This document shows, in pieces, positions 27,871 through 37,564 of a DNA stretch of 64,000 nt (positions within the stretch are counted from its first letter, which is position 1; every line of letters begins with the position of its first letter). The stretch comes from Tetrahymena thermophila SB210. Its lineage: Eukaryota > Ciliophora > Oligohymenophorea > Hymenostomatida > Tetrahymenidae. The position numbers and the translations under genes were made by a program. The notes under the pieces were generated by a model that searched no databases, was not told where the DNA came from, and saw only the letters and a program-made list of their open reading frames with translations. Where the stretch lies: assembly GCF_000189635.1 (NCBI RefSeq), contig NW_002476319.1, forward strand, positions 124,001 through 188,000, in the 5' to 3' direction.

Positions 27871-29238
27871 TTATCTTGAATTTTTTATAAATTAATGCTT
27901 GCTTTTTCTACTTTTAATAAGTTTTAATTCTTAATACTTTTTTTAATTTTGTCTATGAAATTTAGTTATCAAATGAATTAAACATAATGAGCAATAGCAT
28001 CATTTAATATATCTATAAAGTATTTGATCTGAATTTTTAATATAATTCTTATTTTAAAATCATGCTTTTTAGTAGAATTTTCATCATAAATACATATACT
28101 AATTCTAACAATTGATAACAATTTTTTCACAATAAATAAAAATATTTTTTTTAATTTTATGATATTAATATTTTAATAAAATAAAAATTAAAAATCAACA
28201 CACATAATTTTTTACAAAATTTAAACAACTACTTTTGTATTAAAACTATTGTCTAAAAGATTTTAATAATTATGTAATAAAAATTTAGAATCTAATTTAT
28301 TATGAGCAATTTTTATCATACTCAAAGTAGATCATAATGCTTTTTAACAATTATAAAAGTTTATTTAATAATTTTAATAAATTTTTTAAATAAGATATAA
28401 CACAATCATAATGATAATTAATCAATTAAAATTCTAATTTCTTAATTTTTTTAAACATATTTTAAAAAGTAGTAAAATAATAAAAAAATAACTTTAAATC
28501 AATTTGTTAATATTTTTTATCTTAATTTTACTTTGCTAATCTTTTTAGTAAAGGTTGAATAAACTATTTAATAAATAAAAAAATAAATGTTTAATTGAGA
28601 AATTAAGTTATTATAATAATAATAAAAAAATATCTTATAATTCATTTTATTTTGCTGATTTCTTTCATAAATTTTAAAAAATTGTTGAATAATATAAAAA
28701 TAACTTTATATCATTTTTTCAATATTTTTTTTATATATTGATATATAATTGAATTAATTATTTTAATTTTTAAAGTTTAAAAGATAAATTTGTGATTGAT
28801 AACGTAAGCTATTAAGCAATAAGAGATAATGTCCTATGTTTTCTTTTTATTTTGATAATTTCTTATGATAAATTTTTAAAAATTGAAAAACATTAAAAAA
28901 ATAACATTATTTATATCAATTAATTTTTTGAATATTGATAAGTAGTTTTTAATTTTTATAAACCTTTTTAATAAAAGTTAAAGAAAATATTTTTATTTAT
29001 AAAATAAAAAAAATTAACATATGATGAAATACTTTGGCTATTAAATTAAAAATCTTTTTGTGAAATAAAGTTATAATTGCTATATTAATAAATTAATTGG
29101 TTATGAGCAATCATTGCCGTTTAGTGTTTCCTATTTTAAATAAATATCTTAAAAAGTTATCGTTTTTGGTAATTCTTTAATTATGCTTTTAAATTAAAAA
29201 CATATAAAATAAAAACTGAATTAACTATTTTGAAATAC
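27871..29238. other. Long A+T-rich divergent spacer
   Basis: Head-to-head spacer between UTP11 and a membrane protein gene; it must hold both promoters. Its centre contains degenerate repeats listed separately. No coding frame is supported. Confidence 0.5.
28440..28960. repeat. Three degenerate A+T-rich repeat units of about 200 bp
   Basis: A similar block (A-run, ATAACTTTA, ATCA, then T-rich with AATATT) occurs near 28482, 28694 and 28894. A flank like TAAATTTTAAAAAATTG recurs near 28663 and 28861. Spacing is about 200-210 bp. Low sequence complexity makes chance similarity possible. Confidence 0.35.
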
Positions 29239-30780
29239 ATGAATACAGCTCTTGCTTTGGTACTCTCTATATAAAATTTGGCAGAGCTTGTAGTATAGGT
29301 TTTTATAGTAATCTTACTCATTAACAAAGATAGCTACTCCATGTTATATGCTTTCTTATTTACTATATTTTTAGATGGCTTCGGACTAATTTATTTTCTT
29401 AGAAATGATAATGTTGTTCCTCATAAAAAACCAAAATATTTGGTATTCTGTTTCTTATAATTAGAATTTGTTTATCAGTTAATTTTTGAAGAAGTTCCTA
29501 TGTCTATATAAAACAACATTGGTTATAGGGCATTCAGAGAATAAATTTATGTTATTTTAAATCTCGCTTTTGTGTTTACCTTTTAGGTTGATCAGAGCTA
29601 AACCAGCTATGATATTGAAATTAATTAGTTCATAATACTGCTTACTCGAATATCTTTCTTTTCGATATATCTATTTTGCTATCACACAATTAAGTATTAA
29701 TGGATGTCTTTTCTAGAATTTGTAGATGCAAATATAGTTATCTTTGCCTACTATTTAGGAATTGGTGTAATTTCAACTTAGATGGTAGGTGAAGATAATA
29801 AATATAATCTTGGATTGATATACTTTTTATTTATTTTATCTACTAACTTGATTTCTATATTCTACAGTATAAGATATATTAAGGATAATGAAGATGTAAA
29901 CTTGTTAAACACATTTTTCTGTTCATTATCTTGCAATTCTTTTTATAAAAATATGTGCTCTTATGGGCAAATGAAACCAACAATAGTCTTTAGATATTTG
30001 AATATGATATTTATTTTTGCTTTTCTGATCATCTATTTTTCATAAACAGCTCTTGATAATTTATATGACTTCTTGCATCTCCCATTGAAATAAAAGTTTA
30101 TAACTAGTTGTAGCTTAGTAAGTATGGCATTATTTCTACCTTTGTTACTTAGATATCTTCCTGAGTTTTATAATTACGCAATAAGAGAGAGAAGCTATTA
30201 CATCAATTGTGAAGAAGAATTGAATTCAGCAATAAATGAATTCAATTCTAAAATGTTGTTTACTCATTAAGTTGATATTTTAATAAAAACTAATTACTTT
30301 AACATTGCAAAAGAAGAGAAAAATTCAATCGAAGAGTAGTAGTTAATTTAAAAATAATGTTAGGATGGATAATGTAATATTTAATACAAATTTTTGCGTT
30401 CAATCTCTAAGCTCTTATCAAAAAATGTAATAGTCAACATTTAAAATTATGATTTATCTTTATGTTAATATCATGCTGAATAGCTTATCATAGGAGAGTA
30501 GATTGTTTATGAAAAACTCTTAGAAAAAACCTTCTCATAAGAAAAGTATTAAATTGATTAAACATTAATGATGATAATTAAAGAAAGATTTACTAATGGT
30601 TTTTACAATACAGAATTATCCTAAAGAATAATCAACAAAATTTAGATCAAGCAAAAAAGAATTTTCTAGAATATGAACAGTTAGGCATATTAAGTTTTTG
30701 CATTTATCAAACACTAAAAATAATACATAACCATATTACCTGAACTACTCCTATTCGATTTATATAGTATTGATACATGA
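29239..30780 (+). CDS. Unknown polytopic membrane protein with soluble tail
   Basis: A single ciliate-code exon of 513 residues ends at TGA 30778-30780. The first 300 residues contain about eight or nine hydrophobic segments. Examples are LALVLSIQNLAELVV, MLYAFLFTIFLDGFGLIYFL, LGLIYFLFILSTNLISIFY and FRYLNMIFIFAFLIIYF. The remaining 200 residues are hydrophilic and helix-rich and would form a cytoplasmic tail (SAINEFNSKMLFTHQVDI onward). I recognise no transporter, channel or receptor motif. The segment count does not fit a seven-helix receptor cleanly. Start is the first ATG and begins directly with a membrane helix. Confidence 0.82.
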
Positions 30781-31697: not shown

Positions 31698-32333
31698 ATG
31701 GTAGTAGAGCATTAAGATATCAAGCAAATAAATATTTAGCTTCTAGGTAGTTCTTAACAAAGCTTGTAGTATCTCATTCAAAAGTATTGTGATAATAAAC
31801 TAAATCACTAATAAAGCTCATAAAATTGTTAATTTATAGAATATGAAAAGACAAATATCTGTGTCGTAAAAAATCGATAAAACTGAATTTGTATTAAAAA
31901 ATAATTATTTTTTTAGGAAAATAAAAATAAATAGGTTTATTTTTGGAATGATTTTGGTTTCGACCATGTTGAAGATAAGAATTTGAAACTTAGATTAAAG
32001 AATGTGCATGGAGTTATTTTTTTGTATGATATAAATAATTATCAACATTATTTAGAAACATGCCAAAGATTTTTTAGAGTTCAAATATTAGAAGAGCTTT
32101 TAAAATAAAAATTTTCTAAAGTTATAATTGGAATATAATAAAATCAATCAGAACAAAGGTAGGTGTCTAATAAAGAAGCTTAAGATTTTTCTCTTTCTAC
32201 TGGAGCAAAGTTATATGAATTGTTTTAATTTCAATAAATTAATTTCGATGAGTCTTTTAACTACTTAATTTAAGAAATATTAAGAATTAGTAATATTGAA
32301 TAAAAATAAAAAAATTAATCTTTATAAATATGA
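31698..32333 (+). CDS. Rab/Ras-like pseudo-GTPase with all nucleotide motifs lost
   Basis: Two exons (31698-31865, 31917-32333) join in phase 0 to give 194 residues. The fold is recognisable as a small GTPase: IKQINIQLLGSS for strand 1, VHGVIFLYDINNYQHYLETC for strand 4 and helix 3, and RQVSNKEAQDFSLSTGAKLYE followed by NFDESFNYLIQEILR for the C-terminal half. The nucleotide-binding motifs are degenerate. G1 is GSSQQSL (residues 17-23) with no GK[S/T]. G3 is WNDFGFD (66-72) in place of WDTAGQE. G4 is IQQN (129-132) in place of NKxD. G5 is LFQF (158-161) in place of TSAK. The C-terminus has no prenylation cysteines. It is probably unable to bind GTP or attach to membranes by a lipid. No TGA and no frameshift interrupt it, so I call it a coding pseudo-enzyme rather than a pseudogene. 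Confidence 0.75.
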
Positions 32334-32564
32334 TTTTATTATCATTTCTTTTTAGTTTTTAATTTATTAATAATTAGTTATTTTATTTTATTTATGTTGA
32401 AAAAAATTTAACCTAAATTCAGTCGTTTGTTTTACTTAAGATTATTCAAAATAATTTTTAATAAAATATTTTACTTTAAATTTATTTTTTTAATTTAAGT
32501 TCATTCTATTTTTTTGATAGCTTTAAAATTAAAATATCTTAATCAAATTAAGTAAGTAAATCAA

Positions 32565-32595
<31 letters not shown>

Positions 32596-33263
32596 GTAAA
32601 TCTATAAATAAATAATTAATTTGTTAAATAAATAAATAATTAAAAGTTTTTTTTAATTTTAGAAGTATTGTTAGATACAATTTTCACCTTTTATTCCTTA
32701 TTAATAATGTAAGTTTATATTTGAAGTAATTTTTAATAGTAAATTGCATAAAAAAGAATATAGTTGACGTCAAAAGTTATTCTTAGTATATATTTTTGCC
32801 ATAAAATTAATTAAATAGGCTTTTTTAAAATTTCTTTTATACAAATTTGAAAAACTTTTATTAAAACAAAGTAAATATCAAATGACATTTTTTTGTATTT
32901 TTCTAACATTTTTTCTGAGGATTTGTGTATCCAAATTTATTTCTTATCAGATAATCTGATAAGAGTATCTGTCTTATAAAATGTAATTAAAATGACGAAC
33001 TTGTTTTAAGTATTCAACTTGCATTAATATGAAAATAGGTTAATAATTTGAGATTTTGGGATAATTTCTAACACTTTAATTAGCATAACAAATACTTTAA
33101 TTATTAAGTTGATAAATTCATAATCAAAGATATTAAAAATAAAAGAATAAATCGTAGGTGTATTTTAATCACAACTTTTAAAAACTATGTTTAACAATTA
33201 AGTTGTTTAATTTATATTATTAATTAAGTATTAAGAAGTATACCAAAGGTAAATAGTAGAAAT
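32334..33263. other. A+T-rich spacer with tetranucleotide microsatellite
   Basis: Spacer between the pseudo-GTPase and the FLVCR gene. It holds the microsatellite listed separately and otherwise nothing recognisable. Confidence 0.55.
32562..32640. repeat. (AAAT)n microsatellite
   Basis: About fifteen AAAT units with a few interruptions (AAGT, TTAA). Simple slippage repeat in a spacer. Confidence 0.85.
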
Positions 33264-35189
33264 ATGAGAACAAGTTTTGGTCCCCATCAAAAAAAATCCC
33301 TTCTTGATATTGAAGAGGAGGATTAGAATTAATTTAGAGACTACCCATACAGGTATGAATTCATTAAATAAAAAAGGTATGAACAAGCATTTTAATGATA
33401 AAACAAAATTAGGTGGTTTCTAGTATTTCTGTTTTGTTTGCCAAATATGATGAATGGAATAGGTTGGATCACTTTTAGTCCTATTTCGACTCAAGTAGAG
33501 TAGGTAAAAATGCATTTAAATTTAATTATATTCAATGAAAAAATTTTAATTTCTTATTAAAAAGAGTTTTATTTATTTCACCTTTAATAATTTAGGCTTA
33601 TGATCAATCTTAATTTGTAATTACCATGACTTCTATGTCCTACATGTTTTTCTACGTTCTCATAACTTTTCCATCTAATTTCTTGCTTTCTAAGAGCTTA
33701 AAATATGGAGTAAATTATTCAACTTAACATATTTTTTAAACTTTGTGTTCTATTAGTTAATCGTTTGATATTTTTGAATTAATTTGTTAATTTTTTTTAG
33801 ATTTGGCTAGGATCTGTTTTAACAATTTTAGGAGGATGGGTGAGAATATTCATTAATAATAGCTTCTGGTGGGCTATATTTGGTTAAATTTTGGGAGCTA
33901 TTGGATAACCTTTTATTCTGAATGCACCATCTAAAATTGCTGCTGTTTGGTTCAAACCTAAAGAAGTAAAATTTTTTATATTATTTTTAGCATTTAGTAG
34001 ATAAAAAGACAATACTGTATTGACGATTTTAATTTAATAATAATATTAAGCGCCCAATCGCAACTGCAATATTAGCTTTAATTAATACAATCGGTGTTGG
34101 TATTGGATTCTTATTTCCAAGTTTTTTTGTTGATGATTCATATTCTGATCAGACTAGGGATCAAGTTTACTAACTAATGTTATGGTAAGCTGTTACAATG
34201 ACTATTGCTATAGTTCCTTGCATCATCTTTTTCAAAGAAAAGCCTCCTACTCCTCCAAGGTATTATGCTTTATTTTATAAACTTTAATCTATAAAATTAA
34301 TTGAAAATTTATTAAAATAGTCATGCAGCAGAAGCAGAAAAAATGAGTTTCAAAGAGTCTTTTGTTGTCATATTTTAAAATAAAGATTTTATTAAACTAT
34401 TCTTTGCTTTTGGGTGCGTGCTTGGAAATTTTAACTCAATTGCAACTTTAATTAATTTCTATTTGGAATAATTTGGCTTCTCGAGTGTATCTAATTTAAA
34501 TTCTGTATTTTCGTTAATCTAATTTTTTATTTAAAGGATTAAACTAGTTATTTTGGAGCTATGTTTATTGTGTCTGGTTTAATTGGATCTGGAATTCTTA
34601 GTGTTGTTGTGGAGAGGACAAGTGCATATAAAAAAGTAATGACAATAACATGTCTAATCTCGATTTTTACTTATGGTTTGTAAATGGGTATGCTAGTTTT
34701 AGAAAATTTTTGGTTATTAATGATAGCTATATTTTTGATGGGATTTTTTACAACTCCTTTGATTCCAATTAGCATGGATTTTGCATGCGAAATCACTTTC
34801 CCTATATCTGAGCCTTTCAGCTCTGGTTTGGTATTAGCCTCTGGTCAATTATTTGGATCAATTTTAGTAACACTTATTGCAAAAAATACATTTTTTATGT
34901 TATATAAAATAATTTATTTTAAAAGATTATTTTAGGTACTCAGGCTATTTAACTTAATACAAAAGATGAAGTGCTTATTTCTAATGGAGTAGGTTTAGGA
35001 TTGCTTATTGTTGGGTTCATTTTTTATATGTTTTTAAACGAAGATTTAAAACGTAAAGAAGAGGAATTGAGACTTGAAAATGAAAGAAGAGAAAGATTAT
35101 TGCATAGAGAAAAAGACGATGATTATATAAATGGTGTTGACACGTTAACTCCTAATTAGCCATCTTCAATAGTAGCAAGTAAGCATTGA
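33264..35189 (+). CDS. FLVCR-type major facilitator transporter
   Basis: Eight exons (33264-33352, 33413-33503, 33596-33709, 33801-33965, 34051-34259, 34321-34486, 34537-34866, 34926-35189) join in consistent phase to 475 residues. The N-terminus reads YPYRWFLVFLFCLPNMMNGI then GWITFSPIST. Exon 4 gives GSVLTILGGWVR and GQPFILNAPSKIAAVWF, both hallmark segments of the FLVCR family. About twelve membrane helices follow the MFS plan, ending in a charged tail (NEDLKRKEEELRLENERRE). Animal FLVCR proteins export heme or carry choline or ethanolamine. The substrate here is unknown. An alternative 36 bp first intron also keeps frame, but the 60 bp version gives a better family match and a usual intron size. 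Confidence 0.92.
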
Positions 35190-36660: not shown

Positions 36661-37564
36661 ATGAGCTTACAATAAGACTACGACTACTTATTCAAGTTAT
36701 TGTTGATTGGTAACTCTGCCGTCGGTAAATCCTCCTTGTTATTGCGTTTTTCTGATAACATCTTTAATGATTGCTTCTTGCCAACAATTGGTGTTGATTT
36801 CAAAATCAGAACTTTTGATATTGTAAGCTAATTTATTTCCTTTCTTTAAACTCGTCCATTTAACATACTTCAAGCGTGAAAACCAGCAAAAGAAGTTTGC
36901 ATAAATAATTTTTTATCAGACTTTTTACGCCAACTCACGTGGACTTTTTTTTTTACAAATTTTTCTAAAGTTAAAAAAAAAACATAGTAAGCGAAAACAA
37001 GTACAAAAAATGCGCTGAAATTAATTTACAAAAATGGAATTTTTAATTGGCAAAAAAAAAATTAATTAGTTTTATATTTGAATTAATTAGTAAGGAAAAG
37101 CTGTTAAATTGTAAATTTGGGATACTGCTGGTCAAGAACGTTTCAAAACTATTACATCATCATATTACAAGGGTGCCCACGGTATTATTTTAGTTTATGA
37201 CATTACCGACAAGCAAACCTTTAAGGATATTGATAACTGGTTAGCTGAAGCTGACAAGAATGCAAATGAAAATGTTATCAAGCTTTTGGTTGGTAACAAG
37301 GCTGATTTAGAAAGCAAGCGTCAAGTTACCTTCGAAGAAGGCAAGGAATTAGCTGACTCATTAGGAATTAAATTTATTGAAACTTCAGCTTTGAACTCCA
37401 ACAACGTCGAAACTGCTTTCATCACCCTCGCTACTGAAATCAAGAGCAGAGTATAAAAGAACACTGAAACTGCCCCCAGAGGTGCAAATGCCCAAACTGG
37501 CAAGACCAAAATTAAAGCTGGTGACGATCTCAGTAATAAGAAGAAGAAAGACGGCTGCTGCTGA
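36661..37564 (+). CDS. RAB1: Rab1/Ypt1-type small GTPase
   Basis: Two exons (36661-36822, 37091-37564), joined in phase 0, give 211 residues. All nucleotide motifs are intact: GNSAVGKS (17-24), the [10 protein letters not shown] effector region, WDTAGQERF (64-72), GNKAD (122-126) and TSAL (152-155, where SAK is usual). The protein ends in KKDGCC for double geranylgeranylation. The effector region and the [11 protein letters not shown] and [14 protein letters not shown] stretches place it with Rab1, which directs endoplasmic reticulum to Golgi transport. Coding sequence uses many C-ending codons and CAA for Gln with few TAA, unlike most neighbours, which suggests strong expression. The 268 bp intron is long for this locus. 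Confidence 0.95.

Follow-up and report, generated by a model that had tools for sequence, protein, structure and literature searches.

A Rab-like gene of Tetrahymena thermophila predicted to encode a pseudo-GTPase that has lost most of its nucleotide-binding residues

The Rab-like gene and its neighbourhood

The window, a stretch of 64,000 nucleotides from contig NW_002476319.1 of Tetrahymena thermophila SB210, contains a degenerate Rab-like gene and a canonical Rab1 gene, which serves as the comparator. Their features are as follows.

31698..31865, plus strand: exon 1 of the Rab-like gene, 56 codons (residues 1–56), covering the N-terminus, β1, the degenerate G1, α1 and the β2 region
31866..31916, plus strand: intron of 51 nt, GTAAAA...TTTTAG, at a position common to Rab1 and ten non-prenylated Rab-like genes
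31917..32333, plus strand: exon 2 of the Rab-like gene, residues 57–194, β3 to α5 and the tail, with the TGA stop at 32331–32333
36661..37564, plus strand: canonical Rab1 gene (exon 1 36661–36822, intron 36823–37090, exon 2 37091–37564)

The two exons of the Rab-like gene encode a product of 194 amino acids in the ciliate code. Four pairs of GT and AG sites keep the frame when donors are sought at 31820–31883 and acceptors at 31890–31959, and the GTAAAA/TTTTAG pair generates a junction located exactly 9 residues ahead of the β3 Trp in phase 0, as in Rab1. The intron length is divisible by three, yet an in-frame TGA lies within it at 31884–31886; the full-length protein therefore requires splicing, and retention would truncate it. 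The first glycine of G1 follows 16 N-terminal residues, as does its counterpart in the neighbouring Rab1. G and C make up 22% of the coding exons, compared with 14% of the intron and 13–14% of the 500-base flanks on either side, and the first codon positions are the richest (31%). Since the minus strand over the gene carries an open frame of 503 codons (32148–33659, table 6), the length of a reading frame alone is poor evidence here. The coordinates, the intron and the intact frame are those described in an earlier note on this DNA, which had also placed a Rab1 about 4 kb away. The Rab1 gene starts 4.3 kb off, on the same contig and strand, and has the identical intron position and phase. A major-facilitator reading frame (34024–35070; MFS_1, E 7.7e-9) lies between the two genes, and a 557-codon open frame (29107–30780, table 6) contains many hydrophobic stretches and has no Pfam match at E 0.01. 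Published T. thermophila SFR1 primers (PMC5112337) agree with the species assignment: on contig C173 of this genome, the final 32 bases of the forward primer match exactly at 342833–342864 and a reverse primer of 34 bases matches exactly at 343518–343551, whereas the full 38-base forward primer and a 40-base form of the reverse primer, both as printed, do not match.

The Rab-like protein matches the Pfam Ras profile PF00071 at 36.7 bits (cut-off 21.6; E 3.9e-9), with residues 16–178 aligned to profile positions 5–161 of 162, and exon 2 by itself gives E 1.2e-8. In a sequence search of the PDB, Rab21 is the best match (1.2e-7), followed by Rab35, Rab11 and Rab1 chains. The best group profile built from the genome, comprising ten genes, scores 57.7 bits against the protein, compared with a maximum of 8.4 over 500 shuffles. 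As judged from sequence homology, the gene is by descent a member of the Ras/Rab small GTPase superfamily, and the Rab-family origin proposed in the earlier note is borne out by the PF00071 and PDB matches. By eye, no more than two segments can be made out, KLQIW (as QVYFW) and LVYDIT (as FLYDIN). In a protein search of its own genome, the matches following the gene itself by E-value are C80 (34% identity, 3.3e-6), C134 (23%), C72 (30%) and C121 (29%), and no near copy was found.

Loss of the nucleotide motifs and the prenylation site

The remnants of four nucleotide-binding motifs can be placed along the protein by comparison with the L004 Rab.

31746..31769, plus strand: G1 remnant GSSQQSLQ, residues 17–24 (GDSGVGKT in the L004 Rab); the Lys and Ser/Thr are lost
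31947..31964, plus strand: G3 remnant NDFGFD, residues 67–72 (DTAGQE in the L004 Rab)
32133..32144, plus strand: G4 remnant IQQN, residues 129–132 (TKID in the L004 Rab)
32217..32231, plus strand: G5 remnant ELFQF, residues 157–161 (ETSAK in the L004 Rab)

Among 11 scored motif residues (four in G1, two in G3, three in G4 and two in G5), the protein keeps two, both glycines: the first of G1 and that of DxxG. Replacements affect the Lys of the P-loop, each of the three scored residues of G4 and the Ser-Ala of G5, and three of the lost residues have become hydrophobic (K23L, N129I and S159F). No G2 Thr is present at the aligned place by eye. The protein thus departs from the pattern used to recognise a working Rab, namely GxxxxGK[S/T] in G1, DxxG in G3, [N/T]KxD in G4 and SA in G5. 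The earlier claim that G1, G3, G4 and G5 are all replaced holds for nine of the 11 residues but goes too far with respect to the two glycines. Its observation that the prenylation cysteines are missing stands: the protein has four Cys, the most C-terminal at residue 105 of 194, the tail NQSLQI has no prenylation cysteine, and a pattern scan of 32181–33100 revealed no Cys-Cys or Cys-x-Cys tail ahead of a TGA.

To place this loss within the genome, 89 Ras-family models were built from PF00071 matches, with splices chosen by profile score (that of L047_1094 was re-chosen and that of L014 left ambiguous), and the 27 with gapped motif columns were dropped. In the remaining 62, the Rab-like gene ranks lowest with two residues, two models keep six, and 59 keep 9–11. 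This survey scored 150 of 201 candidates; 16 further regions and C442, C67, C282 and C178 lie outside it. The protein is thus a predicted pseudo-GTPase, with a GTPase domain recognised by homology and its nucleotide-binding residues lost.

Relatives in the genome and retention of the reading frame

The intron of the Rab-like gene falls at alignment column 44 in phase 0, a placement that was assigned automatically to ten of 63 intron-bearing models, including the Rab-like gene and Rab1. Junction inspection of L011 and re-splicing of L047_1094 revealed the same intron in these genes. The resulting set comprises ten non-prenylated genes (L043, L044, three of L047, L050, two of L057, L011 and L013), all of which have no Cys in their last four residues as modelled, and the intron is shared by the prenylated Rab1. 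Outside the L057 pair, the members of the set keep 9–11 of the 11 motif residues, with L047_1094 scored on its uncorrected splice and L011 and L047_4213 scored with gapped motif columns. In the non-prenylated L047 tandem trio (G000:C9:422300-428300), the G1, G4 and G5 residues are intact and G3 is degenerate. The non-prenylated L057 tandem pair (G000:C321:17200-21300) carries a GKQ P-loop, no DxxG and LKKD in place of NKxD, and each copy keeps six of 11 residues.

The L057 copies and a third, related locus provide a yardstick for decay; these comparisons omit 30 bases at the start of exon 1 and 20 at the end of exon 2. L057a and L057b differ by 54 substitutions over 505 exonic sites, with no exonic indels and two intron indels. 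This distribution suggests that L057 is still under selection for its frame, and the pair seems to consist of half-degenerate genes that look alive. L078 (G000:C60:847300-849400) differs from L057a by 77 exonic substitutions over 503 sites, four frameshifting indels, all in exon 2, and one 6-nt insertion, and an AT-rich tetranucleotide run follows its exon 2. L078 is clearly a Rab-like pseudogene related to the L057 pair. It emerged from a search with L057 as the query and is absent from the family-search matches listed, indicating that further degenerate copies may be missed. Nei–Gojobori dN/dS values in the set are 0.75 for the L057 pair, 0.60 for L011/L013 and 0.77–0.84 for the L047 trio, compared with 0.13 for the conserved Rab pair L004/L007; constraint in the set is therefore loose. 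Fast-evolving, tandemly duplicated genes are described as a feature of Tetrahymena genomes in PMC6564038, a comparison of 10 species, the text of which contains neither "rab gtpase" nor "small gtpase".

The Rab-like gene itself shows no frameshift: the spacings between anchors differ from those of Rab1 by +2, 0, +1, +3 and 0 whole codons. Neutral decay was simulated with 400 runs per setting, starting either from Rab1 or from an L057-like gene with six motif residues, at a frameshift rate of 0.052 per substitution, which derives from the four events in one dead copy, L078, which may have diverged in part before it died. At 0.06 neutral substitutions per site, the frame remained intact in 8–12% of runs. 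At 0.1 per site from the Rab1 start, it was intact in 0.0225 of runs, with a mean loss of 2.4 of 11 motif residues; from the L057 start, the frame was intact in 3%, the mean loss was 1.5 of six, and four or more residues were lost in 3.25%. From the Rab1 start, no run at up to 0.2 per site lost nine or more motif residues; at 0.4 per site a fraction of 0.14 did so, and none of the 400 runs at that setting retained the frame. Neutral decay is thus very unlikely to yield an intact frame together with nine lost motif residues. Accordingly, most of the motif loss probably happened under frame-keeping selection, that is, selection probably kept the frame of the Rab-like gene during most of this loss. 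The proposal of the earlier note that selection preserved the frame is supported by the indel rate of L078 and the simulation; the absence of TGA codons, on which the note had drawn, is weak evidence by itself. The argument that this absence proves selection was rejected, since none arise with a chance of 0.07–0.21 in neutral simulations at 25% identity.

Retention of core and motif residues was compared with neutral expectation by running simulations to 25% identity. The protein keeps 39 of 49 hydrophobic core columns (0.80) versus a neutral mean of 0.66–0.70 (sd 0.06–0.07), approximately two standard deviations above that mean; among 150 neutral runs per start, the highest values were 0.81–0.86. 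Of the columns conserved at 60% or more in the other 11 rows of alignment A1, 16 of 35 non-motif columns are kept versus one of ten motif columns (Fisher 0.04; 0.06–0.12 at three stricter cut-offs). The possibility that motif residues were lost faster than neutrally was rejected, as two are kept against a neutral mean of 1.2–2.2. Estimates of dN/dS between the Rab-like gene and three paralogues were saturated (dS 1.4–2.0) and discarded. The long branch of the gene in trees, its letter composition, flagged as odd in the quick maximum-likelihood tree, and its 30 Gln among 194 residues are as expected of relaxed constraint. The best-kept part of the protein lies toward its C-terminus, where the secondary structure is assigned from homology.

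32157..32285, plus strand: best-kept stretch, residues 137–179, RQVSNKEAQDF ... INFDESFNYLIQEILR, α4-β6-α5 by position

Kinship, explanations and known pseudo-GTPases

Thirteen group profiles were built, two of them from the non-prenylated column-44 set. The Rab-like protein scores 57.7 bits against the ten-gene profile of this set and 46.3 against an eight-gene version lacking L011 and L013, compared with 41.4 against the best other group and 30.7 against the Rab1 group. The score is well below the 122–206 bits that left-out members of the set obtain against a profile of the rest. In pairwise phmmer comparisons, the top matches are L037 and L019, both from outside the set. The quick maximum-likelihood tree (79 of 89 rows) places the gene in a 13-row group with the set, L037 and L014 (SH-aLRT 84), and L037 has a different intron; a tree from exon 2 only, with the same 79 rows, has L011, L013 and L014 closest. 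In a more careful mixture-model tree of 38 chosen rows, the gene is unplaced on an end branch of 3.79, and the set does not form one clade. AU tests reject neither its placement with the set (p 0.413) nor that with Rab1 (p 0.727), and the tree joining it with Rab1 has a likelihood above that of the free quick search. Since these trees and tests differ, the gene is not placed by tree. The group profile and the intron alone favour kinship with the non-prenylated set. The earlier statement that the C-terminal half looks no closer to Rab1 than to other Rabs agrees with the profile scores, but it overlooks the intron, which is equal in position and phase to that of Rab1. Overall, what the note had observed is confirmed, and its interpretation is partly supported.

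The explanation that we regard as probable on balance is that of a protein-coding pseudo-Rab, in which most of the motif loss took place under selection for the frame and which would act as a non-prenylated, non-switching binding protein. It would derive from a Rab gene whose intron lay 9 residues ahead of the β3 Trp, and most nucleotide-binding residues would have been lost while selection still held the reading frame. The roles of the P-loop Lys and the G4 and G5 residues in GTP binding, and of the prenylation site in membrane attachment, are established. With all of these gone, the pseudo-Rab is not expected to bind GTP or to attach to membranes as a Rab does. We infer that the protein is made and retains a Ras-like fold, remaining off membranes and no longer binding GTP or switching. 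It may instead bind constitutively, with the better-kept α4-β6-α5 side (residues 137–179) as the probable surface, and by analogy with CENP-M could have a trafficking or scaffold protein as its fixed partner.

Three other accounts were weighed against this explanation. The gene could have been functional until recently, perhaps with its motifs already depleted, and now be decaying as a dispensable part of a birth-and-death set, its intact frame being a short-lived remnant. The clearly dead L078, a relative of two set members in the same genome, the fast evolution of the set, the motif residues lost at about the unconstrained rate and the fraction of simulated frames still intact at 0.06 substitutions per site are all consistent with such decay. 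However, the mean losses simulated at 0.1 per site, from either start, cover so few motif residues that most of the loss should predate any recent death, and the intron, start spacing and stop of the gene are all in order; we consider this account somewhat unlikely. A local duplicate of Rab1 that diverged alone, unrelated to the set, would be compatible with the function proposed for the pseudo-Rab. The proximity of the two genes, their identical intron and the likelihood of the joint tree argue for this origin, whereas the protein scores higher against the set profile than against the Rab1 group, with or without L011 and L013, and the same intron position occurs in set genes lying on other contigs. 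Such an origin appears distinctly unlikely. Least probable, and by a long way improbable, is an unconventional Rab whose pocket was rebuilt with other residues and binds nucleotide or a different ligand. The two remaining glycines are in its favour, and some degenerate Rabs are reported to be active, such as EhRabX3 as cited in PMC8514894. Against a rebuilt pocket, the Lys of the P-loop, every scored residue of G4 and the Ser-Ala of G5 are replaced, three of the lost positions now being hydrophobic.

Few pseudo-GTPases are known to lack all of the nucleotide motifs. The route of motif loss in pseudo-GTPases is usually inferred via distant orthologues. In T. thermophila, a tractable model organism, relatives that are near-intact, half-degenerate, motif-less and dead seem to coexist in one genome, and this series may make motif loss traceable. 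With such relatives side by side, the order of the losses and the point at which GTP stops mattering could become testable. The ten set genes resemble the pseudo-Rab in lacking a Cys tail as modelled, in the identical place of the intron and in their joint profile being its best match, but differ in keeping more motif residues (6 of 11 in the L057 pair, 9–11 in the others). A bolder and unlikely reading is that of a non-prenylated, Rab1-derived family leaving the GTP switch stepwise under selection, from near-intact through half-degenerate (GKQ, LKKD) members to a motif-less fixed partner, along with dead copies. The motif-less member would perhaps be a structural partner of its own GTP-binding siblings. 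If true, this would represent a live series of conversion from small GTPase to scaffold within one genome.

Previous work on T. thermophila set aside 17 predicted Rabs without prenylated C-terminal residues (Bright et al. 2010, PMC2954822). These "Rab-like" genes share with the pseudo-Rab the species and the absence of prenylation residues; the term "nucleotide-binding" occurs 0 times in the main text of that paper. CENP-M, a human kinetochore pseudo-GTPase required for a kinetochore complex as a structural subunit, is likewise a small-GTPase descendant, reported to lack every essential nucleotide signature (PMC4080450). The suggestion in the earlier note that loss of all motifs is rarer is weakened by this precedent. 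According to the same report, Rabs are the closest structural kin of CENP-M, and it does not bind MANT-GTP. CENP-M was described from metazoans, and its switch I and β2 are deleted, whereas they are substituted in the pseudo-Rab; its partner and structure are known, whereas the pseudo-Rab is known here from its gene sequence. EhRabX10 of Entamoeba histolytica, also from a protist whose Rab set is expanded, has mostly non-canonical G motifs and lacks the G2 Thr, but keeps more than the pseudo-Rab (DTQDME in G3, TKAD in G4 and SSQ in G5; PMC8514894); no word starting with "prenyl" occurs in the main text of that source. Further pseudo-GTPases include domains of p190RhoGAP (PMC5593906) and septins (PMC10731463). 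No paper combining Tetrahymena and pseudo-GTPase turned up in the literature collection searched, and Tetrahymena is absent from the titles and abstract openings of papers on pseudo-GTPases and Rab among the matches listed. Pseudo-GTPases such as CENP-M and EhRabX10 are thus known, and what would be new is a T. thermophila pseudo-Rab with an unusual series of relatives.

Two observations concern other Ras-family loci of this genome. L072_1228 (G000:C125:292500-295300), a partial model whose first exon is unmodelled, keeps two of 11 motif residues, with NKIG in G4 and EVQT in G5, and is possibly another degenerate gene. The L025 tandem trio (G000:C91:1023500-1030600) consists of Rabs with Cys-Cys tails, two pairs of which have dN/dS values of 0.81 and 3.17. 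In one L025 copy, the P-loop GKT has changed to GNT and DTAGQE to DTASQD, with a dN of 0.080 versus a dS of 0.025 against its neighbour.
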